Positions 11,230 to 31,055 of a stretch of 64,000 bases of DNA are shown here, piece after piece. The translations under genes and the position numbers were made by a program. The notes under the pieces are model-generated. The model was not told the DNA's origin and made no database searches. It saw nothing but the letters and a program-made list of their open reading frames with translations. The DNA comes from Pseudoxanthomonas indica (GTDB lineage Bacteria > Pseudomonadota > Gammaproteobacteria > Xanthomonadales > Xanthomonadaceae): the NCBI RefSeq assembly GCF_900167565.1, contig NZ_FUZV01000002.1, positions 682,001 to 746,000 on the forward strand. Direction: 5' to 3'. How positions within the stretch are numbered: the stretch's first letter is position 1; each line of letters opens with the position of its first letter.

Positions 11230-11295
11230 AATGTGACAGGTCGGAGTGGGACCGGCCGGTACGCACACCTCATCAAAGCCATCAGGAGAGTTTGG

Positions 11296-12099: not shown

Positions 12100-12123
12100 T
12101 TCACCGCCCTCGTCAGGCAAGGA

Positions 12124-12154: not shown

Positions 12155-12185
12155 GCCTGCAACGCCACGGACCGTCCATCGACGG

Positions 12186-12482: not shown

Positions 12483-12659
12483 GCGGTGCTCCGGTGCGTT
12501 CGGCGTCGCAGGAATCTGCGCCCGCAGCGGTTACCGCCCGGTTAAAACAGCGACCTCGAGCAAGGGCGAATCGTCATGACCATATGCCGGTCGGGAATCA
12601 TTCGCCCGCCGCCGCATCCGCATCGAAAGCAGGTCGGCAGGGGCTATCATTCACGGTCA

Positions 12660-15210: not shown

Positions 15211-16233
15211 ATGGGCGACATCATCACTACGCGCATCGTGCTGGCCTCGCGCCCCAGCGGTGAACCCCGGGCGGACAACTTCCGTCTGGAGCAGGCGCCG
15301 CTGGCGACGCCCGGTCCGGGACAATTGCTGATCCGCAATCGCTATCTGTCGCTGGATCCGTACATGCGCGGTCGCATGGATGCCGGTCGTTCTTATGCAG
15401 CGCCGGTGGCGATCGATGACGTGATGGAGGGCCGCACCGTGGCCGAGGTGCTGGAGTCGCAGCATCCCGACTATGCGGCGGGCGAACTCGTGCTGGCGAG
15501 TGGTGGCTGGCAGACCCATGCGGTCATCGATGCCAGGGCGGTGATCCGCAAGCTGCACGACGATGGCCTGCCGCTCAGCACCTCCCTGGGCGTGTATGGC
15601 ATGCCGGGCTTCACCGCGTATGCGGGCCTGCACGAGATCGGCAAGCCGCAGGCGGGTGAAACGCTGGTGGTCGCGGCCGCCAGCGGTCCGGTCGGCGCCA
15701 CGGTGGGCCAGATCGCCAGGATGCAGGGCGCGCGCACGGTGGGCATCGCCGGTGGTGAAGCCAAGCGCCAGTACCTGGAATCCATCGGCTTCGACGTGGC
15801 GCTGGATCATCGCGCCGAGGATTTCGCCGCGCAGTTACGCGCGGCGGTGCCGCAGGGCATCGATGTGTATTTCGAGAACGTCGGCGGCAAGGTGTTCGAC
15901 GCGGTGGTGCCGTTGCTCAATGACTTTGCCCGCATCCCGGTGTGCGGCACGATCGCCAACTACAATTCGCGCGGCGAGATTCTGCCGGGCCCGGATCGCC
16001 TGCCCGGCTTCGTCAGCCAGATCCTGCGCCAGCGGCTGACCCTGCGCGGATTCATCCAGCGCGACTTCATCCACCTGTTCCCGCAGTTCCTCACCGACAT
16101 GGGCGCCTGGCTCAAGGACGGCCGCATCCAGTACCGCGAGGACATCGTCGAAGGGCTGGAGCAGGCGCCGGAAGCGTTCTTCGGCCTGTTGAAGGGACGC
16201 AACTTCGGCAAGTTGGTGGTCAAGCTGGATTGA
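15211..16233 (+). CDS. NADP-dependent medium-chain oxidoreductase (CurA-like)
   Basis: 340 aa, of the zinc-free MDR family that includes E. coli CurA and prostaglandin/leukotriene reductases, which reduce alpha,beta-unsaturated carbonyls with NADPH. Visible features: LSLDPYMRGRMD near residue 47, VYGMPGFTAYAGL at the domain junction, AAASGPVGATVGQIAR (nucleotide fold) and VYFENVGGKVFDAVV. A GGAGAGGG site precedes the ATG at 15211. It follows metQ by 39 bp on the same strand and could be co-transcribed, but no functional link is apparent. The last 14 bases overlap the end of the UvrA-like gene. Confidence 0.9.
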   Translation: MGDIITTRIVLASRPSGEPRADNFRLEQAPLATPGPGQLLIRNRYLSLDPYMRGRMDAGRSYAAPVAIDDVMEGRTVAEVLESQHPDYAAGELVLASGGWQTHAVIDARAVIRKLHDDGLPLSTSLGVYGMPGFTAYAGLHEIGKPQAGETLVVAAASGPVGATVGQIARMQGARTVGIAGGEAKRQYLESIGFDVALDHRAEDFAAQLRAAVPQGIDVYFENVGGKVFDAVVPLLNDFARIPVCGTIANYNSRGEILPGPDRLPGFVSQILRQRLTLRGFIQRDFIHLFPQFLTDMGAWLKDGRIQYREDIVEGLEQAPEAFFGLLKGRNFGKLVVKLD

Positions 16234-18844
16234 GGGCCTGCTGCAGATAGGCTGCGGTGGCACTGCCACGCGCCTTCGCCACCATGGCCGGCGGTCCTTC
16301 CGCCACCACCATGCCGCCCTGCTCACCGGCGCCCGGACCGATGTCGATGACCCAGTCGGCATCGGCCACCACCCGCATGTCGTGTTCCACCACCACCACC
16401 GTATTGCCGGCGTCCACCAGCGCATGCAACTGCACCATCAGCTTGTCGACGTCGGCCGGATGCAGGCCGGTGGTGGGTTCATCCAGCACGTACAGCGAAT
16501 CACCGCGTTGGCTGCGCTGCAGTTCGCTGGCCAGCTTGATCCGTTGCGCCTCGCCGCCCGACAGTTCGGTGGCGGGTTGGCCCAGGCGCAGATAGTCCAG
16601 GCCCATCGCCTGCAGCAGTGACAGCGGCTTGTGGATCGCGGCTTCGCCGGCGAAGAACTGCATGGCCTCGTCGACGGTCATCGCCAGCACCTGCGCGATG
16701 TTTTTGCCGTTCCAGTCCACTTCCAGGGTCTTGTCGTTGTAGCGGCTGCCGTGACAGGTGGGGCAGGGCGCATACACGCTGGGCATGAACAACAGTTCCA
16801 CCTGCACGAAGCCCTCGCCTTCGCAGGTCTCGCAGCGGCCCTGCGCCACGTTGAAGGAGAAGCGGCCCACGCCGTAGCGTCGCTTCCTGGCGGCCGGGGT
16901 GGCGGCGAACAGTTTGCGCACGTGATCGAACAGACCGGTGTAGGTGGCCAGGTTGGATCGCGGCGTGCGGCCAATCGGTTTTTGATCGACATTGATCATC
17001 CGCCGCAGGGCGTTGGCGTCGACGCGCAGGCGACCGGTCGTGCGCGCGATGGCGGTCGGTTGCGGCAGCTCGCCTTCGTTCTCTTCCACCACAGGTTCAT
17101 GGCCCAGGTGATCGCCGACCAGTTCCACCAGCGCCTGGCTCACCAGGCTCGATTTGCCGGAACCGGAGACGCCGGTGACGGCAGTGAACGCGCCGAGCGG
17201 AAAGCGCACGTCCAGCCCGTGCAGGTTGTTGCGATGGATGCCAGTGAGTTGCAGCCAGCCGGCAGGCGTACGCTTGTCGCGCCGGGGCGCACGCTCGCTC
17301 GCGAACAGATAGCGTCCCGTCTTCGACTGGGCCACATCGCGCAGACCCTCGGGCGGACCGCTGTACATCACCCGGCCCCCGTGTTGTCCCGCCCCCGGGC
17401 CGACGTCCACCAGCCAGTCGGCACGGCGCAGCGTATCCAGATCATGCTCGACCACGAACAGCGTATTGCCCGTGGCCTTGAGCTGGCCCAGGGCATCGTG
17501 CAGCGCCTCGGCATCGGCCGGATGCAGGCCGGCCGTGGGTTCATCCAGCACATAGACCACGCCGAACAGCTGGGATCGGATCTGGGTGGCCAGCCGCAGC
17601 CGTTGCAGTTCACCCGATGACAGCGTGGGCGTGGCGCGATCCAGCGACAGATAACCCAGGCCCAGCGCCTGCAGCGCGCCGATGCGATCGCGCAGATCCT
17701 GGGTGATGCGTTGCGCGGCAATGCGCTTTTCTTCCGACAGATCCGGCGTGCGCCGCACGTCCGAGCTGCCTTCATGCGCCGGCCCGCCCTTGGCCACCCG
17801 TCGGGCGGTGTCCTGCCGCGTTGCCGACTTGCTGCGCGTGGCGGCGCGCGAAGGCGCGTTGAAGTGACCGTCGGCCGCGGGCGCCAGCACCTCGCTGATC
17901 CGATCCAGAGACAGTTGCGACAGGCTGCCGATGTCCAGGCCCGCGAAGGTCACCGACAGCGCCTCGCGCTTCAGCCGGCGTCCCTTGCAGACCGGGCACG
18001 ATGCGCCGGTCATGAAACGGGCCACGCGCTTCTTCATCAGCGCGCTCTGGGTGGTGGCGAAGGTATGCAGGATGTAGCGACGCGCGCCGGTGAAGGTGCC
18101 CATGTAGCTGGGCTCGGTCTTGCGGCGCAGCGCCGCACGCGTTTCGGCGGGAGTGAAACCGGCGTATACCGGCGCGGTCGGCTGCTCCTCGGTGAACAGG
18201 ATCCACTGCCGATCCTTCTTCGGCAGATCCCGCCAGGGCGTGTCGACGTCATGGCCCAGGGTGACCAGGATGTCGCGCAGGTTCTGGCCGTGCCAGGCCG
18301 GTGGCCAGGAGGCGATGGCGCGCTCGCGGATACTCAACGACGGGTCCGGCACCATCGATTTTTCGGTGACGTCGTAGATGTAGCCCAGGCCGTGGCAATT
18401 CGGGCAGGCGCCTTGCGGGGTGTTGGGTGAAAAGTCTTCGGCGTACAACATCGGCTGGCGCGCCGGGTACGTGCCGGCGCGCGAGTAGAGCATGCGCAGC
18501 AGGCTGGACAGCGTGGTCACGCTGCCCACGGTGGAGCGCACGTTGGGCGTGCCACGTTGTTGCTGCAGCGCCACCGCCGGTGGCAGGCCTTCGATGGCGT
18601 CGACGGCCGGCACGCCGACTTGATCGATCAAGCGCCGCGCATACGGCGACAGCGACTCCAGGTAGCGGCGTTGCGCCTCGGCGTACAGGGTGCCGAAGGC
18701 CAGCGACGACTTGCCGGAACCGGAAATGCCGGAGAACACCACCAGCGCATCACGCGGGATGTCCACGTCCACGTCCTTGAGGTTGTGCTCGCGGGCGCCG
18801 CGGACGCGGACGAACTCGCCAGTCTTGGGGTGGAAGGGTTTCAT
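16220..18844 (-). CDS. UvrA-like excinuclease ATPase lacking the UvrB-binding domain
   Basis: 874 aa, shorter than housekeeping UvrA (~940). Two ABC modules are present: Walker A GISGSGKS (residues 39-46) with signature LSSGE (408-412) and Walker B YVLDEP (431-436), then GVSGSGKS (558-565) with LSGGE (761-765). Zinc-type Cys pairs sit at CPNC (147-150), CPVC (283-286) and C671/C674/C694/C697. From LYSRAGTYP (119-127) the chain goes almost directly to the [10 protein letters not shown] zinc segment, so the region that binds UvrB in true UvrA is missing; this is the pattern of the UvrA2 class. A basic, disordered-looking insert lies at about 325-365. Role may be DNA-damage recognition or drug tolerance rather than classical repair. 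Start at [10 protein letters not shown] matches the family. Confidence 0.88.
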
Positions 18845-18966
18845 GGGGGGCCTGCTGACGGGGAATGCATCGTAGTCAACATAGGAGCATGGGGTGAATG
18901 GCATGTGCAGGCTGGGGTACCCTGACCCTCATTTCCGCTTTGGCCTTCCCGTTCGTCTTTGGCTAC

Positions 18967-19551
18967 ATGAGAGCACCCAGCGACCAGCACCCCCCGCCGG
19001 ACGAGGGCCCCGAAGCGGGAACGGGCGAAGCCCCGGCCTCGGCCGAATCCCTGATGCGCGACTTCAACCAGGCGCTGGTGCGGATGCTGCAGTTGCGCCT
19101 GGGCTCGTATGAGGATGCCCGCGAAGTGGCGCAGGAGGCCTACGCCAAGCTGCTGGTGGCGGGCGACAGCAAGGTGGTCAGCTACCACCGCGCCTACCTG
19201 TTCCGGATTGCGCAGAACTTGGCCACCGATCTGTTACGCAAGCGCGCCTACACCGAGCTGCCCGAACCCATCGACCTGGGCCTGTGGCGCGACCCGGTGG
19301 CCAATCCGGAACGCGCCGCGCGGCTGTCACAGGTGCTGCATAAACTGCCGGCCATCCTGGCCGAGCTCCCCGACAACTGCACCGAGGCCTTCCGCCTGGT
19401 GCGCATCAAGCAACTTAGCTTTGCCGAAGCCGCGGCGTGCATGGGCCTGACCGAACGCATGGTGCGCATCCATGTGGCCCGGGCGCTGGCGCATTGCCAA
19501 CAACATCTGGACGGCATCACGGACGAGTACGCAGGAGAAGGACATGAATAA
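18967..19551 (+). CDS. ECF RNA polymerase sigma factor (FecI-like)
   Basis: 194 aa. Region 2 is visible around YEDAREVAQEAYAKLL and YLFRIAQNLATDLLRKRA; region 4 around LPDNCTEAFRLVRIKQLSF and a helix-turn-helix AEAAACMGLTERMVRIHVAR. Such factors direct RNA polymerase to receptor and uptake genes when released by their partner anti-sigma factor. The start ATG at 18967 follows no clear ribosome binding site; the frame opens at 18898, so the start is uncertain. The stop overlaps the start of the FecR-type gene, as usual for the pair, and an STN-bearing receptor follows. Confidence 0.92.
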   Translation: MRAPSDQHPPPDEGPEAGTGEAPASAESLMRDFNQALVRMLQLRLGSYEDAREVAQEAYAKLLVAGDSKVVSYHRAYLFRIAQNLATDLLRKRAYTELPEPIDLGLWRDPVANPERAARLSQVLHKLPAILAELPDNCTEAFRLVRIKQLSFAEAAACMGLTERMVRIHVARALAHCQQHLDGITDEYAGEGHE

Positions 19552-20677
19552 GACCGACCAGAACGCGCGCACGCTGGCGGTGGAGCAGGCCAGCCAATGG
19601 CTGGTCCGCCTGCAGGATGACGCCGTGTCCGATGCGGATCTCGAAGCCTGGGGCGACTGGATGACGCAGCCGGAAAACGCGCGCGCCTTCGACGACATCA
19701 GCGCGCTGTGGGAAGCCACGGCGGCGTTGTCTTCCGAGTCGCTGGAGCAGGCCGCGGCCGCACGCGCAGAAGGCGCACCGGCGCCAATATCCGCGTCCAC
19801 ATCGACGACTGCGGCAACACCGGCATCCGCATCCACCTCCGCGGGTGCGACACGAACCCTGTTGCACCGTCGCCGCCGCAAGCCCTGGCTGGCCGCCGCC
19901 GCCATTGCCGCCAGCTGCGCGCTGGTGGCGGTGGGCGTGTTCAAGCTGTTGCCAGGCACGCCGCCACCCGCCGATCAGCAATGGGTCACCGGCAAGGGCG
20001 AACGCCGCGAGCTGCAGCTGGCCGATGGATCCCGCGTGGTGCTGGATGCCGACAGCCAGTTGCGCGTGGTGTTTGCCGACGGTCATCGTGATCTGCAGCT
20101 GCCACGCGGCCGCGCCCACTTCGCGGTGGCGCATGATCCGGCGCGGCCTTTCCGCGTGCAGGCCGGCGGCATCGTCAGTCAGGCCATCGGCACGCGTTTC
20201 AGCGTGGCGCATGCGTCGGCCGATCAGGTCGCGGTGGTGGTGGACGAAGGGCGGGTGCGGGTGAGCGAACGCGCAGCAGGCAAACGCGACGCGGCTGGCC
20301 CTGTCGCCGCACGCACGCTCGACCTGGTCAGGAACCAGCGCGCGCGCTACGGCGCGCTGGGCGGACTGCAGGGTCCGCAGCCGATCAATGCCGATCTGGC
20401 CGGCGCATGGAAGGAGGGCAGCGTGATCTATCAACGCGAACCGTTGGCCAGCGTGGTGGAAGATCTCAATCGCTATTCGCGCATTCCGTTGCGGCTGGAA
20501 GACAGCTCGATGGGCAGCCTGCTGGTGACCGGCCGCTGGGAAAGCGCCAGCGTCGACACCTGGGTGGAAGGCCTGGCCAAGGCCTTGCATCTGGAGGTGG
20601 TGCGCAAGCCGGATGTGATCCTGTTGGCGGCGCGCAAGCCCGTGCAACGCGACACTCCGCCGCTGTCGACGCCTTAG
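19544..20677 (+). CDS. FecR-type anti-sigma factor
   Basis: 377 aa. An N-terminal cytoplasmic segment binds the sigma factor in this family (EQASQWLVRLQDDAVSDADL; WGDWMTQPENARAFDD), then a low-complexity linker, one transmembrane helix (WLAAAAIAASCALVAVGVF, about residues 110-128), and the periplasmic FecR domain (GERRELQLADGSRVVLDADS; RGRAHFAVAHDPARPFRV). A C-terminal STN-like fold (SVVEDLNRYSRIPLRLED) should touch the receptor. It overlaps the sigma gene by 8 bp and has GGAGAAGG before the ATG. It relays the receptor state from periplasm to sigma factor. Confidence 0.93.
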   Translation: MNKTDQNARTLAVEQASQWLVRLQDDAVSDADLEAWGDWMTQPENARAFDDISALWEATAALSSESLEQAAAARAEGAPAPISASTSTTAATPASASTSAGATRTLLHRRRRKPWLAAAAIAASCALVAVGVFKLLPGTPPPADQQWVTGKGERRELQLADGSRVVLDADSQLRVVFADGHRDLQLPRGRAHFAVAHDPARPFRVQAGGIVSQAIGTRFSVAHASADQVAVVVDEGRVRVSERAAGKRDAAGPVAARTLDLVRNQRARYGALGGLQGPQPINADLAGAWKEGSVIYQREPLASVVEDLNRYSRIPLRLEDSSMGSLLVTGRWESASVDTWVEGLAKALHLEVVRKPDVILLAARKPVQRDTPPLSTP

Positions 20678-20699
20678 CGGGAACCAGGAGAGCCGGCGG

Positions 20700-23030
20700 G
20701 TGATACCACGCATGCGGCGCGCGGCGCTGGTCACGTTCCTCTCGCTTGCGGTGTCGGCGCCGACGCTGGCTGCCGAACGCGCTGCCGCGCGCAAGGACTT
20801 CCATATTCCGCCGCAGCCGCTGGATGAGGCCCTGCTCGCTTTCTCGCAGCAGGCCGGAGTGGAGCTGGCGGCGGTGGGCGATTTCAGCCAGGCCGGACGC
20901 AGCGCGGCGGTGGACGGCATCATGACCCCGCAGGCGGCGTTGGAACGGCTGTTGGGTGGCAGCGCTTTCGAGTACGCCATCCAGCCCAATGGCATGGTCA
21001 CCGTCTCGGCGCTGCGCGCGCACACCTCGCCGGCGCCAGCGGCGACCATGCGCCTGGAACGCGCCGCCACCACCACGCCAATCGTCACCCGCAACGTGGC
21101 CACCATCGTGGTGACCGCTCGCAAGCGCGACGAACGCCTGATTGACGTGCCGATGGCGATCTCCGCCGTCAGTGGCGAGCGGATCGAACTGCTGGGCCTG
21201 GACAGCGCGGCCGAGGTGGCCAAGCTGACGCCGGCGGTGAGCAGCGTGGATATTGGCGGCGGCTTTACCCAGCTGCAGATCCGCGGCGTTTCCAGTTCCA
21301 TCGGCGGCAACGACAACGGCTACTACCTGGACGATGTCGCCTTCAGCGGCGTCACCGTGCCCTGGCATCCGGACACGCGCTCGTTCGATCTGGAACGCGT
21401 CGAGATCCTCAAGGGTCCGCAGGGCACGCTGTTTGGCGAAGGATCGCTGGGCGGCACCATCCGTATCCTCACCCGCGCGCCGGAACTGGATCAGTTCCGC
21501 GCCCGCGTCGAACTGGGCGTCGCAAGTACCGAATCCGGTGGCAGCGGTGACAGCGCCAAGCTGATGGCCAACCTGCCGTTGATCGACGACCACCTGGCGC
21601 TGCGCGTGATCGCCACCGAGGAAACGCTGCCGGGTTGGCTGGATGATGCCGCCAGCGGCCGTCGCAACGACAACCGTCAGGCGATCGCCACCCGGCGTGC
21701 GCGCTTGCGCTGGTCGCCCGATGACCGCTGGTTGACGGATGTCAGTTATATGCGATCGACCACCGACGCCATGGGCGGCGGCTACTCGGCCGCGGATGAC
21801 GGGCAAGTGGATGCGACGCTGGGCAACGACTCGCAATGGCAAAGCAGCAGTTTCACGACCAGCTATCTCAGCGGCCATTCGCGCTTCAGCTACATCTACT
21901 CAGACAGCAGCCTGGGCTACCAGCTCAATGGCAGCCTCAACCCCGCCAGCCCCACCACCGGCTCGATCGCCATCGACGTGAGCACACAGGAACTGCGCTG
22001 GAGTTACGCGCTCGATGATCGCCTGGACTGGGTCGCCGGCTACGCCCATCGGCGGGCGGCGCGCACGGATCACCTGGTGGTGGCGGAGGCGACTTCGATG
22101 GCCAGCCAGTCCAATCGCGCCGACACGCTGTACGCCGAAGGCACGCTGCGCAGTCGCGATGGACAGTGGTCCGTCACCGCGGGCCTGCGCTACTTCCTGG
22201 ATCGGGTCGATGGCATATCGGCCGGCGACGACATCGTGTCCACCGCCAAGGACCGCTTCGAGAGCGTGAACCCGCGCGTGATCATCGCGCGGCAGCTGTC
22301 GCCTGAGATGCTGTGGTACGCCACCGCCAGTACCGGTTTCCGCTCCGGCCAGCTGCAGCCGATCACGTCGCTGGTGACGGCGCAGGCGCTGGGCACGGAG
22401 TTGCCGCTGTCGATCAAACCCGACTCCATCACGTCCTACGAACTGGGCTTCAAGCAGCAGCTGGCCGACCAGCGCGTGCTGCTGCAAGGTGCGCTGTTCC
22501 AGAGCCGTTGGCGGGATTTGCCGGTGCGGGTGCCGCTGGACGATGACTTCAACGGCATCGCCAACTCGCGTGGCGCGCGCATCCGTGGCGCGGAAGCGGG
22601 CATCCGCTACAACGCGCCGTCCAGCCTGAGCCTGGAGGTCAACGCAGGCCTGGTGGATGCGCGCTACCTGGCCGATGTACCGGGCACGCCGCTGCGCAAG
22701 GGCTCCACCGTCTACAACGTGCCCAAGCTCACCGCGTCGGCGGCGGCCAGCTATGCCTGGTGGGTGGCGGGCGATCTGACGGCCGTGGCCTCGGCGACGG
22801 CGTTCTACAACTCCGAGCGGACCACTTCGCTGGTGGTGGGTCGCAGCGGCGATGCCATTCTCTCGATCGGCGCGCGCGTGGGGCTTGAATCGCCGCGCGG
22901 CTGGGCCGGTTACCTGTACGTCGACAACCTTGGCAACGAAGACGGCGCAGTCGACGGGCGCACCGCCTTCGACGTGGCGACCCGGCTCAGACCACGCACC
23001 TACGGAATGGAGCTGCGCTACGCCTACTGA
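20700..23030 (+). CDS. TonB-dependent receptor with STN signalling domain
   Basis: 776 aa. The signal peptide covers about residues 1-25 (ends TLAAERA). Residues ~33-101 are the STN (secretin/TonB short N-terminal) domain: FHIPPQPLDEALLAFSQQAG and GIMTPQAALERLLGGS. A TonB-box-like TIVVTARKRDERL (about 137) is followed by the plug, including IRGVSSSIGGNDNGYYLDD, then a 22-strand barrel ending in Tyr. STN receptors pass a ligand signal to FecR-type proteins. The GTG at 20700 has AGGAG at good distance; an ATG at 20712 is an alternative. The next gene encodes a paralogue without the STN domain. Ligand unknown. Confidence 0.93.
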   Translation: MIPRMRRAALVTFLSLAVSAPTLAAERAAARKDFHIPPQPLDEALLAFSQQAGVELAAVGDFSQAGRSAAVDGIMTPQAALERLLGGSAFEYAIQPNGMVTVSALRAHTSPAPAATMRLERAATTTPIVTRNVATIVVTARKRDERLIDVPMAISAVSGERIELLGLDSAAEVAKLTPAVSSVDIGGGFTQLQIRGVSSSIGGNDNGYYLDDVAFSGVTVPWHPDTRSFDLERVEILKGPQGTLFGEGSLGGTIRILTRAPELDQFRARVELGVASTESGGSGDSAKLMANLPLIDDHLALRVIATEETLPGWLDDAASGRRNDNRQAIATRRARLRWSPDDRWLTDVSYMRSTTDAMGGGYSAADDGQVDATLGNDSQWQSSSFTTSYLSGHSRFSYIYSDSSLGYQLNGSLNPASPTTGSIAIDVSTQELRWSYALDDRLDWVAGYAHRRAARTDHLVVAEATSMASQSNRADTLYAEGTLRSRDGQWSVTAGLRYFLDRVDGISAGDDIVSTAKDRFESVNPRVIIARQLSPEMLWYATASTGFRSGQLQPITSLVTAQALGTELPLSIKPDSITSYELGFKQQLADQRVLLQGALFQSRWRDLPVRVPLDDDFNGIANSRGARIRGAEAGIRYNAPSSLSLEVNAGLVDARYLADVPGTPLRKGSTVYNVPKLTASAAASYAWWVAGDLTAVASATAFYNSERTTSLVVGRSGDAILSIGARVGLESPRGWAGYLYVDNLGNEDGAVDGRTAFDVATRLRPRTYGMELRYAY

Positions 23031-23153
23031 CCCTGCGGCCGCGCATGGCCGGGGCAGGTGAGGGGCGCATTTCACTTTTGTGGCACAGCTTCGTCTGTGG
23101 CTGTGGGGACTGCTTTTCGCAGCGCCCCGACCCTCAGCCATCGGAGCCCGTGC

Positions 23154-25319
23154 ATGTCCCGTCGCAATCACGTCCCTTTGTTCCGCCACGCCTCTGGCCC
23201 GCGCTGTACGCGATTGGCCGCCGGCATCGTCGCCGCGCTGCTGTTGGCGCCGGCCGCCTTTGCGCAGGATGCCGCCCCTTCCTCCACTGATGGCGCCGCC
23301 GCCACCGACACTACGCCGGCCAGCGAGAAATCGCAGGAAGCGGTGACCCTGGGCAACGTCATCGTGACCGCACGCAAGCGCGACGAACGCCAGCTCGACG
23401 TGCCGATTGCCATGAACGCGGTGACGGGCGAACAGATCGACGCCATGGGCCTGCTCAACGTCACCGATGTCATCAACATCACCCCGGGCGCTTCCTCCAT
23501 CGATACCGGCGGCGGCTTCACCCAGGTGCAGATCCGCGGCGTTTCCAGTTCGCTGGGCGGCAACGACAACGGCTACTACATCGACGAAACCCCGTTCACC
23601 GGCGTCACCGTGCCCTGGTATCCGGACGCGCGCTCGTTCGACATCGATCGGGTTGAAATCCTCAAGGGTCCGCAGGGCACGCTGTTCGGCGAAGGCTCGA
23701 TGGGCGGCACCGTGCGCATCATCACCCGCAAGCCCGACTTCGATCGCTTTGCCGCCGGCGTGGAGCTCAACGCCTCGCAAGTGAGCGGCGGCAGCGATGG
23801 CTGGGGCGCCAAGGCCTACGCCAACATTCCGCTGGTCGATGACATGCTGGCGCTGCGCGTGGCGGTGACCGACGAGACCACGCCCGGCTGGATCGATAAT
23901 GCCGTCACCGGCGAGAAGAACGTCAACGACAACGACATCCGCACCCAGCGCGCCAAGCTGCGCTTTGCGCCGGTCGACAACTGGACCATCGATCTGTCGT
24001 ACTGGAAGTACAAGTCCGACAGCGCGGCCGCTTCCAACGCCGCCTACGACGACATGACCAATGATTCGTTCCTGGCCAACCAGAACGAGTGGGACTCCAG
24101 CAGCCTCACCAGCACCTACGACTTCGAGAACTCGCAGCTGGTCTATGTGTTCTCCGACGCGGACCTGACCTACGGCCAGTTCGGCGACCTGGCACCGGGC
24201 ATTCCGCTGACCGCGGTGATCGACATCGGCGTGCGCACGCACGAGCTGCGCTGGGCCTCGACCGGTGAGCGCAAGCTGGACTGGACGGCGGGCTATTACC
24301 TGCGCAAGGCCACGCGCGAGGACGTACTGGATATTCCGGGCATCGTGGAAAGCACCTCCACCCAGGTCAACGATGCCTACGCGTTCTTCGGCGAAGCCAC
24401 GTTGAACTTCAATGCGCAGTGGGCGTTGACCGCGGGCCTGCGCTATTTCAAGGACGAAGTCGACGGCGCCGATGCCGCGGCCGATGGCAGCGTGTCCACG
24501 CTCGATGCCAGCTTCGACAGCTGGAACCCGCGCGTGGCGCTGTCCTACAAACCCAGCCAGGACACCACCTTCTACGCCAGCGCGGCGAAGGGTTTCCGCT
24601 CCGGCCAGTTGCAGCCGATTGGTTCGATCATCCTGGCCGAGGCGTTCGGCGTTGAACTGCCGTCCACCATCGATCCCGACACCATCTGGACCTACGAGCT
24701 GGGCGTGAAGTCCTTGTTTGCCGAAGGCACGGTGCTGCTGGAAGGCGCGGTGTTCTACAGCGACTGGGAAGGCGTGGCGGTGCGCGTGCCGATCACCCCG
24801 CAGATCAACGGCCTGGCCAATTCCGATGGCACCACCAACTACGGCGTGGAGGTCAACCTGGTTTATACGCCCGACAGCCACCTGACCGTGCAGGCTGGCG
24901 GCAGCTGGATCGACGCGACCTACTCGGCCGATGTGCCGGGCACGCCGCTGTTCAAGGGCACGCCGGTCTACAACGTGCCCAAGACCACCTTCAATCTCTC
25001 CGCCGCCTACGGCTGGGACATTGGCCAGAACCTGCGCGGCATTGCATCGAGCCTGCTGCAGTACGAGTCGGCGCGCGAAACCGCACTCACCGCCGGCACG
25101 CCCGGTGATCCGCGCACGCGCATTGGCGCGCGCGTTGGCCTGGAATCACCGGCCGGCTGGGCGGTGTACCTGTACGGCGAAAACCTGACCAATGAAGACG
25201 GCGCCATCAACGCCCGCAGCGCCAGCCAGTTCGACGGCAACGGCGATCTGCTGCGGCTGGGTGCGGCCGATCGCTACCAGCCGCGCACCTACGGTGTGCT
25301 GTTCCGCTACGACTACTGA
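23154..25319 (+). CDS. TonB-dependent receptor, paralogue without STN domain
   Basis: 721 aa. The signal peptide ends near AAFAQDA (about residue 38). The TonB box region NVIVTARKRDERQLDVPIA and the plug segment IRGVSSSLGGNDNGYYIDE are nearly the same as in the preceding receptor, and similarity continues to the C-terminal barrel (TFYASAAKGFRSGQLQPIGS against the other's TASTGFRSGQLQPITS; DVPGTPLFKGTPVYNVPK). The pair therefore arose by duplication, the upstream copy carrying the STN domain. GGAG lies before the ATG at 23154. The C-terminus YGVLFRYDY ends in an aromatic residue as expected for an outer-membrane barrel. A prolyl-peptidase gene follows after 26 bp. Confidence 0.93.
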   Translation: MSRRNHVPLFRHASGPRCTRLAAGIVAALLLAPAAFAQDAAPSSTDGAAATDTTPASEKSQEAVTLGNVIVTARKRDERQLDVPIAMNAVTGEQIDAMGLLNVTDVINITPGASSIDTGGGFTQVQIRGVSSSLGGNDNGYYIDETPFTGVTVPWYPDARSFDIDRVEILKGPQGTLFGEGSMGGTVRIITRKPDFDRFAAGVELNASQVSGGSDGWGAKAYANIPLVDDMLALRVAVTDETTPGWIDNAVTGEKNVNDNDIRTQRAKLRFAPVDNWTIDLSYWKYKSDSAAASNAAYDDMTNDSFLANQNEWDSSSLTSTYDFENSQLVYVFSDADLTYGQFGDLAPGIPLTAVIDIGVRTHELRWASTGERKLDWTAGYYLRKATREDVLDIPGIVESTSTQVNDAYAFFGEATLNFNAQWALTAGLRYFKDEVDGADAAADGSVSTLDASFDSWNPRVALSYKPSQDTTFYASAAKGFRSGQLQPIGSIILAEAFGVELPSTIDPDTIWTYELGVKSLFAEGTVLLEGAVFYSDWEGVAVRVPITPQINGLANSDGTTNYGVEVNLVYTPDSHLTVQAGGSWIDATYSADVPGTPLFKGTPVYNVPKTTFNLSAAYGWDIGQNLRGIASSLLQYESARETALTAGTPGDPRTRIGARVGLESPAGWAVYLYGENLTNEDGAINARSASQFDGNGDLLRLGAADRYQPRTYGVLFRYDY

Positions 25320-25345
25320 TTGCGCCCACGCACAGAGGACTCACG

Positions 25346-27484
25346 ATGAAGACAAGCTTCCGTTTTTCCAGTGGCCTGCTGGCCATGGCGATCACCGCGG
25401 CCAGTGGCCAGGCCCTGGCAGCCGATGATGATCTGCTGTGGCTGGAATCGCCGCACGATGCCAAGGCCCTGGATTGGGCGCGCGCGGCTACCGCGCAGAC
25501 CCGCCAGCAACTCGGCGCCTCGCCATCGCATGCGGCGGTGGCCGGTGAACTCAAGGCGATCCTGGCGCAACCGCCGGCCGAGCCGGATCAGTACCTGCTT
25601 GGTGAGCGGGTGGTGCGTTTCTTCCGCGACGCCGCCCATCCCTATGGCCTGCTGCAGACCGCGCCACGCAGCGGCGCGGGCGTAAAACGCGACTGGAAGA
25701 CGGTGCTGGACGTGGCCGCGTTGCGCCAGAGCGAAGGCATCCCGTTCGAGCTGCAGGTGTTCACCCTGGGCAGCGCCTGCCTGGCGCCGACCTACACGCG
25801 TTGCCTGCTGCGGCTCTCGCCCGGCGGCGGCGACGAAGTGGAGATCCGCGAGTTTGACATCGGCCAGGGCGCGTTTGTCGCCGATGGCTTCAAGGTCGGC
25901 AAGTCGCGCGCCTTCGCCGAATGGATGGGGCCGGACACCCTGCTGGTGGCCAGTGCACTGAATGATGCACCCAAGACGCTGGCCGGCTGGCCGGCAGTGG
26001 TCAACCTGTGGTCGCGCGGCACGCCACTGGCCAGCGCCAAGCCGGTGTACCAGGCGCAGGCCAGCGATGCGATCGTGCAGTTTTCCACGGTGGGCAATGG
26101 CGCCGATACGCTGGGCGTGATTGGCCGTGCGATCGATTACTCCACTTTCGAGGTGGTGGTGGTGGATGCGCAGGGCAAACAGACCAAGCTGCCTTTCCCG
26201 CAGGCCTTGAAGCCGTTCGGCGTGCTGGGCGCCTCCGCGCGCCACGTGATCGCGCAGCTGGCCCATGACGAGACCATCGAGGGCCGGCCGTACAAGGCCG
26301 AGACCGTGATCGCCTACGACACCAGCGCCAGCGCGAAGGAAGGCCAGCGGGTTTCGGCGGTGTATGTGCCGGCCGCCGGCGAGTTTGTCGACCCGGCCTT
26401 TGGCGGCCTGGCGGTGACCCGCGACGATGTCCTGCTGCTCTCCAACCGCAACCTGCGCCAGCGCGTGGTCGCCGCGCGTTTCGAGCAAGGCCGGTGGAAG
26501 CAGCGGCAGGTGTTCGAAGCGCAGCCCGGCGAGACCGTGACCGTGCGCAGCGATGGCCATGACAGCAACGAGTTCATCGCCTCCGTGGCCGGCTTCGTGA
26601 CCCCGCGCAGCCAGTACCTGATCAACGAGAAGGGTCAGCGCACGCTGTTGGCGCAGGATCCGGTGCTGATGGACGGCAGCGGCTACACCACCGAGATTGG
26701 TTCGGCCACCTCCCGGGATGGCACGTCGATCGACTACTTCCTGCTCAAGCCGCGCAAGCCGGCCGCCGGCCCGCAGCCGCTGCTGATGACCGGGTATGGC
26801 GCGTTTGGCCTGTCGATGCGCCCGGGCTATTTCGATGCGTTCGTCGGTGGTCCCGCGCTGAAGCTGTGGCTGGAACGCGGCGGTGCGATCGCCATCCCGG
26901 CGATTCGTGGCGGCGGCGAGCGTGGTGCGGCCTGGCATATGGCGGCCATCCGCGAGAAGCGACAGAACTCCTACGACGATTTCATCGCGGTGACCGAGCA
27001 CCTGATCAAGACCGGCTTCACCTCGGCTGATCACGTCGGCATTTTCGGCATGTCCAACGGTGGCTTGTTGACCGCCACCCTGGGTACCCAGCGTCCGGAT
27101 CTGTTTGGCGCGGTGGTCAGCGATGTGCCGCTCACCGACCTGATCCGCATGCGCCACATGGGCATGGGCGCGGCGTGGATGAACGAGTACGGCAATCCCG
27201 ATGATCCGGCGCAGACCGCCGCGATGCTGAAGTATTCGCCGTACCAGAACGTCCGCAAGGGAACCAAGTATCCGCCGTTCCTGGTAACCATCTCGACCGA
27301 AGACAACCGCGTCGGCCCCGGCCATGCGCGCAAGCTCGCCTGGCGCCTGCAACAGGCCGGCGCCACCACCTACTTCTATGAAGACGAAGAGGGTGGCCAT
27401 GGCGTAAGTGACGCTTTCCGCAATCCGGAGCTGATGGCGCTGCGGATGAGCTTCCTGATCGACAACCTGATGGGCCAGCACTGA
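25346..27484 (+). CDS. Secreted prolyl oligopeptidase family (S9) serine peptidase
   Basis: 712 aa. The signal peptide is about 1-25 (GQALAADDD), so the enzyme is probably periplasmic. The N-terminal DDLLWLESPHDAKALDWAR is the S9A type start, followed by a beta-propeller (about 75-440) and an alpha/beta-hydrolase domain. The catalytic triad is readable: Ser570 in GMSNGG, Asp653 in TEDNRV, His685 in EEGGHGVSD. Such enzymes cut short peptides after proline; the propeller limits substrate size. It is the last gene of the sigma/anti-sigma/receptor group on the same strand with 26 bp spacing, which points to processing of a peptide taken up by those receptors. That link is inference. Confidence 0.92.
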   Translation: MKTSFRFSSGLLAMAITAASGQALAADDDLLWLESPHDAKALDWARAATAQTRQQLGASPSHAAVAGELKAILAQPPAEPDQYLLGERVVRFFRDAAHPYGLLQTAPRSGAGVKRDWKTVLDVAALRQSEGIPFELQVFTLGSACLAPTYTRCLLRLSPGGGDEVEIREFDIGQGAFVADGFKVGKSRAFAEWMGPDTLLVASALNDAPKTLAGWPAVVNLWSRGTPLASAKPVYQAQASDAIVQFSTVGNGADTLGVIGRAIDYSTFEVVVVDAQGKQTKLPFPQALKPFGVLGASARHVIAQLAHDETIEGRPYKAETVIAYDTSASAKEGQRVSAVYVPAAGEFVDPAFGGLAVTRDDVLLLSNRNLRQRVVAARFEQGRWKQRQVFEAQPGETVTVRSDGHDSNEFIASVAGFVTPRSQYLINEKGQRTLLAQDPVLMDGSGYTTEIGSATSRDGTSIDYFLLKPRKPAAGPQPLLMTGYGAFGLSMRPGYFDAFVGGPALKLWLERGGAIAIPAIRGGGERGAAWHMAAIREKRQNSYDDFIAVTEHLIKTGFTSADHVGIFGMSNGGLLTATLGTQRPDLFGAVVSDVPLTDLIRMRHMGMGAAWMNEYGNPDDPAQTAAMLKYSPYQNVRKGTKYPPFLVTISTEDNRVGPGHARKLAWRLQQAGATTYFYEDEEGGHGVSDAFRNPELMALRMSFLIDNLMGQH

Positions 27485-27537: not shown

Positions 27538-30483
27538 TCACTCCACCCGGGTCATCAGCTCCACATCACCGCCGGCCGCGGCGGTGTTGATGCTGAGCGT
27601 GGATTCGCTGCAGAAGCGGGTCAGGTACAGCGGTCCGCCGGCCTTGGGGCCAGTGCCGGACAGGCCTTCGCCGCCGAACGGTTGCACGCCGACCACCGCG
27701 CCAATCATGTTGCGGTTGATGTAGACATTGCCGGCATGGGCGCTGTCGGCAATCTGGCTGGCACGCTGATCGATGCGGGTCTGCACGCCCAGCGTGAGGC
27801 CGTAGCCGAGTGCGTTGATGCGTTCGACCACGGGCTCGATCTCACCGCGCCAGCGCACCACCTGCAGCACAGGCCCGAAGATCTCTTCGCCCGCATGCTC
27901 GATGGCGTCTATCTCGAAGGCGACCGGGGCGATGCCGTTGGCCAGATCGGCAGGCAGTTCCGCGCGGGCAATCAGCCGCGCTTGCTGCTCCAGTTGCGCG
28001 ATCTGCTGCTGCAGTTTGGCCAGCGCCTCGGCATCGATGACCGGACCCAGATCGCTGGCCAGGTCCGACGGCGCACCGACGCGCAGCAGGCCGATGGCGC
28101 CGCGCAGCATCTCCAGCAGGCCATCGGCCATGTCCTCCTGCACGCACAGCAGGCGCAGCGCCGAACAGCGCTGGCCGGCGCTGCGGAACGTGCTCTGCAC
28201 CACCGCGTCGACCACCTGCTCGAGCAGTGCGGTGGCGTCGACGATCATCGCGTTGATGCCGCCGGTCTCGGCGATCAGCGGCACGATGGGACCGTCCTTG
28301 CCAGCCAGCGTGCGCGCGATCACCTTCGCCACGGCGGTGGAACCGGTGAAGGCCACGCCGGCGATTTGCGGATGCGCGACCAGCGCCGCGCCGGTGTCGC
28401 CCGCGCCATACACGCCGATCAGCACATCGCGCGGCACGCCGCAGTCGTGCAGCAAGGCGATGAAGCGCGCGGCCACGCCCGGCGTCTGTTCCGCCGGCTT
28501 GGCGGCGACCGTATTGCCGGTGACCAGCGCGGCGACCACCTGGCCGGCGAAGATCGCCAGCGGGAAATTCCACGGCGAGATGCATGCCCACACCCCGCGA
28601 CCACGCAGGCGCCAGGTATTGCGCTCGCCGGTGATGCTGCGCAGCGTGCGGGTGGCCATCCACTCGCGCGCCTGCTGGGCGTAGTAGCGGCAGAAGTCGG
28701 CGGCCTCGCGGACTTCCGGTATCGCGTCGGCCCAGGTGCGATGACCTTCGCGCACGATCAACGCGCACCAGAGCGGCAGGTCGCGTTCCAGGGCATCGGC
28801 GGCGCGATCCAGGATGTCGGCGCGTGCTTCCACCGCCAGCGCATTCCAGCCGCGCTGCGCGGCCGCCAGCGTATCGACGATCTGGCCAATGTCATCCACA
28901 GCGGTTTCCGGCGGCGTGGCCAGATCCGCCGTGATCCATGCCGCCTGCAGTGAGGTGGCCATGTCGGCGCTGGTCGGATCCAGGCCAGCGGTATTGCGCC
29001 GACCCTCGAACAGATCCAACGGCAAGGTGACGCCGCTGTGCGCGCTCAGCCTGAGCAGCGAGGGCACCAGCGCCGCAGGCGCAATGCGTTCGTCACCCAA
29101 CTGGTTGACGAAGGAGGAGTTGGCGCCGTTTTCCAGCAGCCGTCGTACCAGGTAGGCGAGCAGGCTTTCGTAGGCGCCGATGGGCGCATACACGCGCAGG
29201 CCCACGTCCGGGTATTGCGCGCGCACCTGCGCATGCACGGCTTCGCCCATGCCATGCAGGCGCTGCAGTTCGAACGGCACGCCCGCTGCGCGCGCCATCT
29301 GCAGCACGGCGGCAATGGTGCCGGCGTTGTGACCGGCAAACTGCGGATACAGCGCATCGGGCGCGGCCAGCATCGCCTGCGCGCAGGCCAGGTAGGCGAT
29401 GTCGGTGTGATGGCGATGGCTGAACACCGGGAACGCCGGCAGCCCCAGTTCCTGCGCGCGCTTGATTTCGTAATCCCAGTAGGCGCCCTTGACCAGCCGC
29501 ACCATGAAGCGCTGGCCATGCGCGCGTGCGATGCGCACGACCTCGGCAATCACGTCCAGTGCACGCGTCTGGTAAGCCTGCACGGCCAGGCCAAAGCCTT
29601 GCCATTGCGGGTACAGGGCAGCCACCTCGCGCGCGACCGCCTCGAACACCTCCAGCGAGATCTCCAGCCGCTCGCTCTCCTCGGCATCGATGGTCAGGTT
29701 GATGTCGGCGGCGGCGGCGGCCTGCGCCAGTTCGCGCACGCGCGGCACCAGCACCGCCATGACGTGATCGCGCTGCAGGGCTTCGAAGCGGGCGTCAATG
29801 GCCGAGAGTTTGATCGAGATGCCGTCGGCCCGTTCCACCGGCACGCTGCGGTCGCGCTGCGCGGCCAGCGTGGCAATGGCCACGCGGTACTTGTCCAGGT
29901 AGGCCAGTGCATCGGCATCGGTGCGCGCGCCTTCGCCGAGCATGTCGTAGGACCAGCGCAGGCCGGCGTGCGCCTTGCGCTGCTTGCGTGCCGTTGCCAG
30001 CGCCTCATCCAGGGTCTGGCCCATGACGAACTGGTTGCCCATCAGCTGCACGGCGCGCACGGTGGCAGCGACCACCGCCTTCCCGCCGACCTTGGCGAGG
30101 AAGCCTTCGCGCTGGCCATCGTCGCCGAGCATCTTCTTCGACAGGCCGATGGCATGGCGGGTCAACGTGGCCAGCCAGGAGTCGGACACCTCGCTGAAAT
30201 CGGCGCGGGAAAGCTGGTCGGCGGTCAGCCGCATCGCGGTCTGCGCATCGGGCACGCGCAGCAGCGCTTCGGCCAGCCGCATCAGCGCCAGCCCTTCGGC
30301 GCTGGAAAGCGGGTACTCACGCAGCAGCGATTCCATCGCGAAGCTGGACGGGCGGGAAGCGCGCACCTGCTCGATCCAGCCGACGGCGTCGCGGCTGGCC
30401 GCCTCCCAATCCAGCGCCTCCAGCGAGGCGAGCAGGGGAGTGACGACGTCGGATTCGGGGCGGTAGGGCGTGGGCAGGCGCAT
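27538..30483 (-). CDS. putA: Bifunctional proline dehydrogenase / glutamate semialdehyde dehydrogenase
   Basis: 981 aa. Oxidises proline to pyrroline-5-carboxylate with FAD, then to glutamate with NAD. The proline dehydrogenase half (about 1-480) shows IKLSAIDARFEALQRDHVM, VRLVKGAYWDYEIKRAQELG and the barrel motif RVYAPIGAYESLLAYLVRRL. The aldehyde dehydrogenase half (about 500-975) shows CISPWNFPLAIFAGQV, the general-base Glu in LIAETGGINAMIVD and the nucleophile Cys773 in SAGQRCSALRLL. The E. coli type has ~1320 residues with an N-terminal ribbon-helix-helix DNA-binding domain and a C-terminal extra domain; both are absent, so this copy is a catalytic-only type and cannot repress itself. 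A divergent Lrp-type gene lies 92 bp away. Confidence 0.96.
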   Translation of the reverse strand: MRLPTPYRPESDVVTPLLASLEALDWEAASRDAVGWIEQVRASRPSSFAMESLLREYPLSSAEGLALMRLAEALLRVPDAQTAMRLTADQLSRADFSEVSDSWLATLTRHAIGLSKKMLGDDGQREGFLAKVGGKAVVAATVRAVQLMGNQFVMGQTLDEALATARKQRKAHAGLRWSYDMLGEGARTDADALAYLDKYRVAIATLAAQRDRSVPVERADGISIKLSAIDARFEALQRDHVMAVLVPRVRELAQAAAAADINLTIDAEESERLEISLEVFEAVAREVAALYPQWQGFGLAVQAYQTRALDVIAEVVRIARAHGQRFMVRLVKGAYWDYEIKRAQELGLPAFPVFSHRHHTDIAYLACAQAMLAAPDALYPQFAGHNAGTIAAVLQMARAAGVPFELQRLHGMGEAVHAQVRAQYPDVGLRVYAPIGAYESLLAYLVRRLLENGANSSFVNQLGDERIAPAALVPSLLRLSAHSGVTLPLDLFEGRRNTAGLDPTSADMATSLQAAWITADLATPPETAVDDIGQIVDTLAAAQRGWNALAVEARADILDRAADALERDLPLWCALIVREGHRTWADAIPEVREAADFCRYYAQQAREWMATRTLRSITGERNTWRLRGRGVWACISPWNFPLAIFAGQVVAALVTGNTVAAKPAEQTPGVAARFIALLHDCGVPRDVLIGVYGAGDTGAALVAHPQIAGVAFTGSTAVAKVIARTLAGKDGPIVPLIAETGGINAMIVDATALLEQVVDAVVQSTFRSAGQRCSALRLLCVQEDMADGLLEMLRGAIGLLRVGAPSDLASDLGPVIDAEALAKLQQQIAQLEQQARLIARAELPADLANGIAPVAFEIDAIEHAGEEIFGPVLQVVRWRGEIEPVVERINALGYGLTLGVQTRIDQRASQIADSAHAGNVYINRNMIGAVVGVQPFGGEGLSGTGPKAGGPLYLTRFCSESTLSINTAAAGGDVELMTRVE

Positions 30484-30575
30484 GGTTCACCGGTTGAAGG
30501 GAGGTGGAGATCGGTGTGCAAGTGTCCGGTGATCAGCGCCGCGTTAATCTCCATAGATGTGGCAGAATCCGGCCC

Positions 30576-31055
30576 ATGAGCGAACAATCCACGGCGTTGG
30601 ACCGGACTGACCGCAGAATCCTCGGCCTGCTCCAGCAAGACGGCCGCATGACCAATCTGGCCCTGGCCGAGGCCGTGCACCTGTCGCCGACGGCGACGCT
30701 GGAACGCGTGCGCCGGCTGACCGCCGCCGGTTTCATCCTCGGCTATCGCGCGCGCTTGAACCCCGAATTGCTCGGCGCAGGCATGCTGGTGTTCGTCGAA
30801 GTGCTGCTGGACCGCACCACCCCGCACATCCTGGAGGAGTTCAAGCAGGCGGTGCAGGACCGGCCCGAGATCATGGAGTGCCACCTGGTGGCAGGCGGTT
30901 TCGATTACCTGATCAAGGTGCGCGCCGCCGACATGTCCGACTACCGTGACCTGGCCGGGCGCGTGCTGTGGGGCCTGCCCGGCGTGCGCGAGACCCGCAC
31001 CTACGCGGTGATGGAAGAGGTCAAGAACAGTCCCGACATCCATCTGGGCCTGTAG
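30576..31055 (+). CDS. Lrp/AsnC-family regulator, probable putA activator
   Basis: 159 aa. An N-terminal winged helix (LDRTDRRILGLLQQDGRMTN; EAVHLSPTATLERVRRLTAAG) is followed by the RAM effector-binding domain (about 85-159; ECHLVAGGFDYLIKVRAADM). It resembles E. coli Lrp and the PutR/BkdR type activators, which switch on amino-acid degradation genes. Its position divergent from putA, sharing a 92-bp promoter region, makes it the likely proline-responsive regulator, replacing the DNA-binding domain that this PutA lacks. The ATG at 30576 begins the family sequence; the frame is open 24 codons further upstream without similarity. Confidence 0.92.
   Translation: MSEQSTALDRTDRRILGLLQQDGRMTNLALAEAVHLSPTATLERVRRLTAAGFILGYRARLNPELLGAGMLVFVEVLLDRTTPHILEEFKQAVQDRPEIMECHLVAGGFDYLIKVRAADMSDYRDLAGRVLWGLPGVRETRTYAVMEEVKNSPDIHLGL

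Follow-up and report, generated by a model that had tools for sequence, protein, structure and literature searches.

Organisation of the locus

The window, a stretch of 64,000 nucleotides from Pseudoxanthomonas indica, carries five genes on one strand at 18967-27484, which were assigned by ORF, Pfam, and PDB matching as an ECF sigma factor, a FecR-type regulator, two TonB-dependent receptors (R1 and R2), and an S9 peptidase (Table 1). The ORFs of sigma and FecR share 8 bases. An earlier note on this DNA had described this one-strand order with its overlap, which the ORFs and Pfam confirmed, and had recognised a surface-signalling design of sigma factor, FecR, and STN receptor, which agrees with the gene content by Pfam and PDB matches. 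Two promoter-like motifs and a convergent PutA-like neighbour are additional to that note. The R2 start was placed at an ATG inside the longer ORF of the earlier note, with Pfam run from 23148, and the S9 signal peptide was called by eye.

Table 1. Positions in the window of the cassette genes, motifs, and neighbours
Feature	Position	Strand	Basis and remarks
Motif P1, TTTC..TTT-N11-TTCGTC type	18932..18957	+	9 bases 5' of sigma ATG; one mismatch
ECF sigma-70 factor	18967..19551	+	Pfam Sigma70_r2 and r4_2, both over cut-offs
FecR-type anti-sigma regulator, DUF4880 + FecR	19544..20677	+	Pfam
R1, TonB-dependent receptor with N-terminal STN-type signalling domain, proposed sensor	20700..23030	+	PDB, NCBIfam, receptor tree
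Motif P2, in R1-R2 gap	23070..23095	+	Exact match
R2, TonB-dependent receptor without STN, proposed importer	23154..25319	+	Pfam Plug and barrel, tree, paralogy
S9A prolyl-oligopeptidase-type serine peptidase	25346..27484	+	Pfam, fold matches, active-site residues
PutA-like bifunctional proline dehydrogenase/aldehyde dehydrogenase	27538..30483	-	Pfam; convergent with S9
Lrp/AsnC-type regulator	30504..31055	+	Pfam; divergent from putA

Eleven further records from Lysobacteraceae, L026-L036, share this order, two of them (L027 and L036) being truncated at the record end, and the layout is therefore beyond chance. A scan for terminator-like structures gave 4 matches against a shuffle mean of 4.5, which is no excess, and a scan for sigma-70-type promoters gave 0.

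Promoter-like motifs

A motif of 26 bases with fixed spacing lies 5' of both sigma and R2. P1 is present with at most two mismatches in all ten readable cassettes, 8-10 bases 5' of the sigma ATG, and this near-constant distance supports the sigma start codon. P2 is present in 12/12 readable R1-R2 gaps, again with at most two mismatches. In the ten genomes scanned, the exact motif matched ten times, nine at cassettes, once elsewhere, and not at all in four cassette-less congeners. With one mismatch, 23 further matches appeared in eight of the ten genomes, nine of them in cassette-less congeners, compared with 10 for the reversed control. P1 and P2 are candidate sites that may be read by the cassette sigma factor, and since the exact motif is nearly exclusive to the cassettes, the sigma factor probably controls little else, with a regulon nearly confined to its own locus. 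That the receptors and S9 are under this sigma factor, as had been proposed, is made probable by the common and nearly private motif. The lone exact match outside a cassette is in the genome of P. indica itself (C1:1469294), where a one-strand rescan gave no match.

The paired receptors

The STN region of R1 matches FpvA and the HasR signalling domain in the PDB (2m5j, residues 27-108, E 3.9e-10), and residues 8-110 match FecA in NCBIfam; Pfam Plug is over its cut-off, whereas Pfam STN is under it (E 0.0029, 17.8 bits vs 28.4). R2 shares 51% identity with R1 across residues 51-721; scored against the whole genome, it finds R1 as its nearest paralogue, and the full-length matches after that are at 31-32%. 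By sequence, R1 and R2 are paralogues that arose by duplication. The pairing of an STN receptor with a close STN-less paralogue, as read earlier, thus holds on the HasR, FpvA, and FecA matches and the receptor tree, with Pfam STN below its cut-off. It appears that R1 may sense the ligand and R2 import it. A similar split seems to be repeated in Sphingomonas colocasiae; by Pfam, STN is absent from the first receptor of L035 and from both receptors of a Novosphingobium plasmid copy.

Designs with FecI, FecR, and an STN receptor mostly serve iron carriers, and among solved structures R1 and R2 come closest to siderophore and heme receptors, chiefly over the plug and STN. Both facts suit a cassette for iron, siderophore, or heme uptake, in which S9 would free iron from a peptide carrier. 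This is improbable, since no clear Fur-box-like site was found at P1 or P2 in ten cassettes: the best matches had 7-11 mismatches of 19 to the E. coli Fur consensus, compared with control means of 9.6-10.5. Beyond the core genes, no iron-handling family occurs in three or more loci. The sigma site of L031, with 7 mismatches, had fewer than the 60 controls from that locus, and is located at the motif itself.

The S9 peptidase

The enzyme matches Pfam Peptidase_S9 (E 4e-47) and Peptidase_S9_N (E 1.5e-11), and combines a beta-propeller with an alpha/beta-hydrolase fold according to Pfam, a structure model, and fold matches. Metagenome contigs carry 173 relatives of S9. In the alignment, the Ser-Asp-His triad of prolyl oligopeptidase and the proline-pocket residues are conserved in all 21 clade members. 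In fold, catalytic residues, and pocket the cassette enzymes resemble S9A prolyl oligopeptidases (4hvt, 2bkl, and porcine POP), so that the ordinary S9A type claimed earlier is borne out. The pocket residues, which bind proline in prolyl oligopeptidases, are here conserved with those of the solved enzymes, and suggest that S9 may cleave after proline, though substrate specificity can drift.

The cassette enzymes form one clade in the S9 tree and differ from other S9 proteins in the residue after the catalytic Asp, which is Asn in 21/21 of them and Asp in 58 of 66 other rows. Unlike the S9A enzymes above, each of the 21 lies within about 5 kb of a TonB receptor gene on its own strand; the earlier note had asked whether most relatives of the peptidase lack receptors, and none of these do. 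The tree was built quickly (LG+G4, with SH-aLRT as the sole branch support) and carried warnings of long branches. Five other rows, each from Nitrospirillum, were left out along with L042 (short ORF), and ORFs were trimmed to the last 735 residues, by which the fused L065 protein is misplaced.

Comparison with lasso-peptide isopeptidase cassettes

In the lasso isopeptidase cassettes of AtxE2, SpI-IsoP, and BenE, the sigma factor, FecR, TonB receptor, and S9-superfamily hydrolase follow the same order as here, according to excerpts of PMC9266682, and cassettes with that order were found in Sphingopyxis, Hyphomonadaceae, and Sphingomonas genomes. The cassette might thus sense and cut foreign lasso peptides, as an isopeptidase cassette without its former biosynthetic half. 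A PF13471 (lasso leader peptidase) protein is also over the cut-off elsewhere in 7/20 carrier genomes. The enzymes themselves make this reading highly improbable. The S9 search reaches neither AtxE2 nor SpI-IsoP, and neither is among the 60 of 85 matches listed in a second search; their relatives lie elsewhere in the S9 tree and are without most of the pocket residues. Four isopeptidases stand beyond a supported branch from the cassette enzymes, where long branches meet, and a cassette profile recovers none of them at E 1. No isopeptidase chain is among the matches listed by VIA-align, although by the rule of that tool a missing chain does not show absence.

Biosynthesis genes give a similar picture. 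A PF13471 search of 247 family genomes, including that of P. indica, found none in the latter at E 0.001 (17 of 36 first-look candidates scored), so that nothing points to a lasso peptide made by the cell itself. Matches to the asparagine-synthase family (cyclase type) were eight in total, none in the window. The earlier statement that leader peptidase and cyclase are missing from the window stands. In 20 PF13471 neighbourhoods of Lysobacteraceae no S9 or TonB receptor was recognised, and sigma or FecR genes were present in two (L105 and L109); in 11 stretches around the PF13471 matches of cassette carriers, no S9 of the cassette kind was found.

The cassettes differ from those of the isopeptidases in using another S9 subfamily, with no lasso biosynthesis gene seen alongside, and, in Lysobacteraceae, in usually having two receptors. 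The receptor families are also distant: the window receptors score at most 29 bits against isopeptidase-cassette receptors, and those of L128 and L133 are unmatched at E 0.001. On the S9 tree, pocket residues, and PF13471 surveys, the kinship with lasso isopeptidases that the earlier note had entertained was rejected; what the two share is gene order, and this is retained as an analogy.

Neighbouring genes and distribution

The convergent putA may belong to the cassette system. A PutA relative lies beside the cassette of Stenotrophomonas mori (L029, 181-3558; 47% identity over 1021 columns), so that putA adjoins two of 21 cassettes. When genomes were scanned for putA at E 1e-200, it was found in 2/19 but seemingly not in S. 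mori, hence the scan gives no estimate of frequency. By a crude gene call, the families present in at least three of 22 loci comprised the core, a cyclophilin, a DUF2867 protein, and shadow ORFs on the reverse strand; none was an inner-membrane transporter of peptides. Cyclophilin genes lie about 1.7-3.5 kb from S9 in L027, L028, L030, and L038, but three of these four loci belong to closely related organisms, a cyclophilin gene also occurs in 1 of 28 control loci (L060), and the association is weak. The Shewanella copy (L037) consists of R2 and S9 with no recognisable sigma factor or FecR.

The distribution is patchy and apparently transferable: the cassette is present in 4 of the 17 genus genomes listed, and one copy is on a conjugative plasmid. 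This could fit a defence in which proline-rich antimicrobial peptides or bacteriocins are imported and destroyed, and R1, which evolves faster by branch lengths in the receptor tree, would suit an arms-race sensor. An energised importer of toxins would be costly, and no family of immunity or efflux proteins is shared by three or more loci, which makes defence a very doubtful function.

Proposed mechanism and significance

Computation shows the genes, the R1/R2 paralogy, and the two conserved motifs, whose exact form is nearly confined to the cassette, as well as the fold and pocket residues of a prolyl oligopeptidase. It is fairly probable that together these form an autonomous unit of cell-surface signalling by which a foreign peptide, probably containing proline, is scavenged. 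The ligand would bind R1, whose STN domain would signal through FecR and free the ECF sigma factor. The sigma factor would then read P1 (sigma-FecR-R1) and P2 (R2-S9), amplifying itself and leading to the production of importer and peptidase. R2, energised by TonB, would take the peptide through the outer membrane, and the exported S9, most likely in the periplasm, would cut it after proline; the fragments would pass to general inner-membrane uptake.

The FecI-FecR-FecA, HasI-HasS-HasR, and FpvA systems likewise use an ECF sigma factor, a FecR-like anti-sigma factor, and an STN receptor. In contrast to them, signalling and import here are seemingly split over two receptors, the sigma factor has its own motif copy, a peptidase belongs to the unit, and a clear Fur-like site is absent. 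The parts are familiar, and no description of the whole combination of private promoters and paired receptors was found in the papers searched. If the scavenging scheme is true, it would represent an outer-membrane route of peptide uptake with its own sensor, importer, and peptidase, and seemingly a one-locus regulon, in which the operon logic of lasso isopeptidases is served by a different S9 subfamily. Because of this different subfamily, and since the sensor/importer split seemingly arose at least twice, evolution may have repeatedly solved the same task. P2 is a candidate reporter for the peptide that the cell detects, which would make ligand discovery practical.

A relative in Roseateles toxinivorans

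The locus of Roseateles toxinivorans (L043) has, on one strand, an STN receptor, an MFS protein, a PF00144 serine hydrolase, an M81 protein, and an S9 of the clade, with sigma and FecR divergent from that strand. Its PF00144 hydrolase has D-aminopeptidase 1ei5 as best solved match, and its M81 protein matches Microcystinase C (7ylq, E 2.4e-98). In excerpts of PMC12474180, the mlr genes for microcystin degradation include MlrB, a periplasmic serine hydrolase, MlrC of M81, and MlrD, an MFS protein; L043 alone resembles them in having a PF00144 hydrolase, an M81 gene, and an MFS gene near S9, and the cassettes add signalling genes and a TonB receptor. PMC8068134 describes Paucibacter toxinivorans 2C20 as lacking mlr genes yet able to linearise microcystins and to break down further cyclic peptides.

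These likenesses suggest that the cassettes might import cyclic peptides of non-ribosomal or cyanobacterial type. S9 would linearise these in the periplasm, leaving the remaining degradation to other peptidases. MFS relatives near S9 in three Burkholderiales loci, and a fusion of S9 to PF00144 in the metagenomic protein P0031 (below), also fit. It remains unlikely, since M81 and PF00144 relatives, both from broad families, were found in L043 only, among 20 cassette loci scanned; at E 0.001 the window has no relative of the L043 M81 protein or of the P0031 PF00144 domain, nor was one of the Burkholderiales MFS proteins found there, and S9 of L043 retains the proline pocket though microcystins are not known to contain proline. 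A bolder scheme, to which we give still less weight, would make the S9 clade a second, independently assembled import system that opens peptides, alongside the lasso isopeptidases, with L043 as the mlr-independent route by which R. toxinivorans would take up and open cyclic cyanopeptides, and the Pseudoxanthomonas cassette as a reduced form suited to a different cyclic or modified peptide. The Roseateles locus is a candidate for the reported degradation of cyclic cyanobacterial peptides, which appears genetically unexplained. The S9 part of P0031 is 67% identical to that of the window; its accession suggested a prolidase fusion, which was dropped as Pfam assigns the fused domain to PF00144 (Beta-lactamase).

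Organisation of the cassette

The cassette of Pseudoxanthomonas indica is probably a variant form of cell-surface-signalled uptake. All five genes described in the earlier note, an ECF sigma factor, a FecR regulator, a TonB receptor with STN (R1), its STN-less paralogue (R2), and a prolyl-oligopeptidase-type S9 enzyme, were confirmed. The interpretation offered there stands in outline and gains strength from the paired promoter-like motifs and from what the receptors show of their evolution; its suggestion of kinship between the S9 enzyme and lasso-peptide isopeptidases does not stand. The genome comprises 3.96 Mb, its closest named relative at the cassette locus is Pseudoxanthomonas yeongjuensis, and the base composition of the cassette is unremarkable within the window. 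Genome-wide, the nearest paralogue of R2 is R1 (51%), followed by full-length matches of 31-32%.

Genes of the cassette and its neighbours
Feature	Position	Strand	Remark
UvrA-like gene	16220-18904		divergent, upstream of sigma
ECF sigma	18967-19551	+	
FecR regulator	19544-20677	+	
Receptor R1	20700-23030	+	STN-type N terminus
Receptor R2	23154-25319	+	without STN
S9 enzyme	25346-27484	+	signal peptide judged by eye
PutA-like bifunctional proline dehydrogenase			downstream of S9, convergent; then a divergent Lrp/AsnC regulator

In the open literature, with few subscription journals, no paper was found that joins three of prolyl oligopeptidase, TonB-dependent, peptide uptake, and FecR. One paper brings prolyl oligopeptidase together with TonB-dependent receptor and Xanthomonas (PMC6430473). 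Since this coverage mostly lacks subscription journals, the novelty of the cassette is not proven.

A promoter-like motif at two sites

Two stretches were first read by eye: the DNA ahead of sigma in 9 cassettes and the gap between R1 and R2 in 12. One 26-base motif with fixed spacing, TTTC-N2-TTT-N11-TTCGTC, is present at both sites; the window has it with one mismatch at 18932 and in exact form at 23070, against 0.10 matches expected from shuffles. Across 13 scanned loci, every match with at most one mismatch fell before sigma or before R2; with at most two mismatches, the motif preceded sigma in all ten readable cassettes and R2 in all 12, and these loci had no match at any other place. The reversed pattern gave no match in these loci at up to one mismatch and four at up to two. 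Neither site is present in L038, a metagenome-bin locus with a single receptor, whose record starts within FecR.

A whole-genome exact scan of ten genomes, with the pattern relaxed at one base, returned ten matches. Eight belonged to five carriers of the cassette and were all at the cassette, including one that an assembly break has left on its own contig and that was assigned by its letters. The window's own genome has one exact match at the cassette and one elsewhere, and the four cassette-less congeners have none, as has the reversed control. When one mismatch was allowed, 34 matches were obtained, of which 11 lay at cassettes; the other 23 were spread over eight of the ten genomes, with nine of these 23 matches in cassette-less congeners, and the reversed control gave ten; therefore, the strict pattern alone is informative.

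The distance from the motif end to the sigma ATG is 8-10 bases in 10/10 cassettes, which supports the start codon and, as read from sequence, suggests that the sigma message is leaderless or nearly so. In the simplest reading, sigma-FecR-R1 would be one transcription unit and R2-S9 another, and the cassette's own sigma factor would read both of them and little else.

History of the paired receptors

In a tree of R1 and R2 from eight Lysobacteraceae cassettes, based on plug and barrel columns only, the R1 receptors form one clade and the R2 receptors another (97/99 and 94/95). Therefore, a single duplication is the simplest account of the pair, although the tree does not prove it. The branching order of the single STN-less receptor of Shewanella relative to these clades was without support. 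Single receptors of the Rubrivivax, Burkholderiales, Hyphomonadaceae, Caulobacter, and Sphingopyxis cassettes fall outside R1/R2, and Pfam STN was matched in all five, over the cut-off in three. Of the two sister receptors of Sphingomonas colocasiae, one has an extended N terminus and matches STN weakly (E 0.045), and the other has neither feature; the pair appears to repeat the STN/STN-less split. The first receptor of L035, a Lysobacteraceae cassette absent from the tree, has no STN match in Pfam, which counts against the split. In each of the nine cassettes L026-L034, R1 and FecR are less conserved than R2 and S9. The single receptor at L038:626-3037 combines STN with a body of the R2 type (1098 bits) and so looks like a recombinant of R1 and R2, or possibly an assembly artefact. 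In P. yeongjuensis, a second sigma/FecR/STN receptor set lies directly behind the cassette (L026:12920-18687).

The S9 clade and its relation to lasso isopeptidases

The 20 cassette-type sequences form a single clade (SH-aLRT 100) in a quickly built tree of 85 S9 proteins; L042 was kept out of the tree (short ORF) and is counted in the 21 cassettes. The earlier note tied the peptidase to the receptors, and within this clade the tie holds: a same-strand TonB receptor lies within about 5 kb of S9 in 21 of 21 cassettes, window and L042 counted, with three genes in between at L043 (Roseateles toxinivorans DSM 16998). In 20 of them a sigma or FecR gene, whole or partial, is present as well; the exception is Shewanella (L037). 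Outside the clade, 29 loci were compared (L045, L047-L074; some records only 3 kb), and in 27 no TonB receptor was found by phmmer with the window's proteins as queries, a search that could miss divergent receptors. The match in L045 is very weak (18 bits). L065, an Erythrobacter bin, has sigma, FecR, and receptors, behind which stands a protein of 1345 residues with two S9 catalytic domains (9851-13888), 32% identical to the window's S9; this is probably an independent S9 recruitment. Contig C2 of the window's own genome holds a tandem S9A-type pair (L018:7837-12096, about 51.8-56.1 kb), and the 19 kb around it showed no recognisable sigma, FecR, or TonB receptor.

Four lasso isopeptidase clusters from carrier genomes have the gene order sigma-FecR-TonB receptor-S9, the same as in the window. 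A review places a TonB transporter and a sigma/anti-sigma pair behind the isopeptidase gene (PMC9266682). Among solved enzymes, the window's S9 is closest in sequence to 4hvt, which cleaves after proline (E 2.5e-79; profile E 9.9e-117), with prolyl endopeptidases next; the solved lasso isopeptidases AtxE2 and SpI-IsoP were absent from the single-sequence matches and from the best 60 of 85 profile matches. 4hvt also ranks first in both fold comparisons of the predicted S9 structure (mean pLDDT 85.2, 19-sequence alignment), its Z being tied with other prolyl oligopeptidases. Ser570, Asp653, and His685, together with Tyr484, Phe487, Asn571, Trp611, and Arg655, are kept in 21/21 clade members and align with residues of solved prolyl endopeptidases; the last five presumably bind proline. 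The four isopeptidases from the carriers' lasso clusters have Ser and His in all cases, Tyr484 in two, and the remaining residues in none. Two of the four were checked against solved relatives, one matching SpI-IsoP (E 2.9e-295) and the other AtxE2 (E 9.6e-122). Thus, the design is common to both but the S9 subfamily is different. These clusters (L128, L129, L131, and L133) belong to Sphingopyxis sp. LC81, a Hyphomonadaceae bin, and Sphingomonas colocasiae, whose genomes carry the S9 cassette at another place.

Distribution

The cassette belongs to the accessory genome and is mobile in some cases. S9 relatives were found in 5/247 genomes of the family (E 1e-150) and 28/398 of the order (1e-120); six of the latter are at least 65% identical, all within the family, followed by a gap down to 38% or less. 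The cassette S9 is present in 4 of the 17 genomes listed for the genus, and a phylum-wide draw at 1e-130 matched 2/398, both from the genus. With the R. toxinivorans S9 as query (1e-150), only R. toxinivorans itself matched among 250 genomes of its family. A species-genome scan with the S9 alignment, using two peptide patterns only, gave 66 candidate stretches and 49 loci. The conjugative plasmid pHR1a of Novosphingobium resinovorum (L193, 774173-794203) carries sigma, FecR, two receptors, and two different S9 genes; a Pfam search found STN in neither receptor, although sigma and FecR genes are present.

Possible cargo

No clear Fur-like site was found, so iron is not favoured as cargo. Pointers to proline peptides are the pocket residues, the adjacency of putA in 2 of 21 cassettes (the window and, upstream on the same strand, Stenotrophomonas mori), and, in the L041 cassette, same-strand genes behind S9 for a DPPIV-type peptidase and a cyclophilin.

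Unusual or cyclic peptides are pointed to by R. toxinivorans DSM 16998, which we take to be the former Paucibacter toxinivorans and strain 2C20. On one strand, its locus (L043:1036-12106) holds genes for an STN receptor, an MFS carrier, a PF00144 hydrolase whose nearest match is D-aminopeptidase, an MlrC-like M81 protein that comes closest to Microcystinase C, and the clade's S9; sigma and FecR are divergent. Without mlr genes, strain 2C20 reportedly linearises microcystins and breaks down other cyclic peptides (PMC8068134). The locus is a candidate route for this unexplained mlr-independent degradation of cyclic cyanobacterial peptides; it is unnamed among the matches listed from the open literature and in the available part of that report. 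Relatives of the Burkholderiales-type MFS, M81, PF00144, DPPIV, and cyclophilin proteins were absent from the window at E 0.001. In three Burkholderiales loci, MFS relatives lie close to S9, which suggests that these carriers bring fragments into the cytoplasm there. At L041:6904-12893, the genes following S9 on its strand also include a PF18566 protein (linalool dehydratase/isomerase family) and an MFS carrier.
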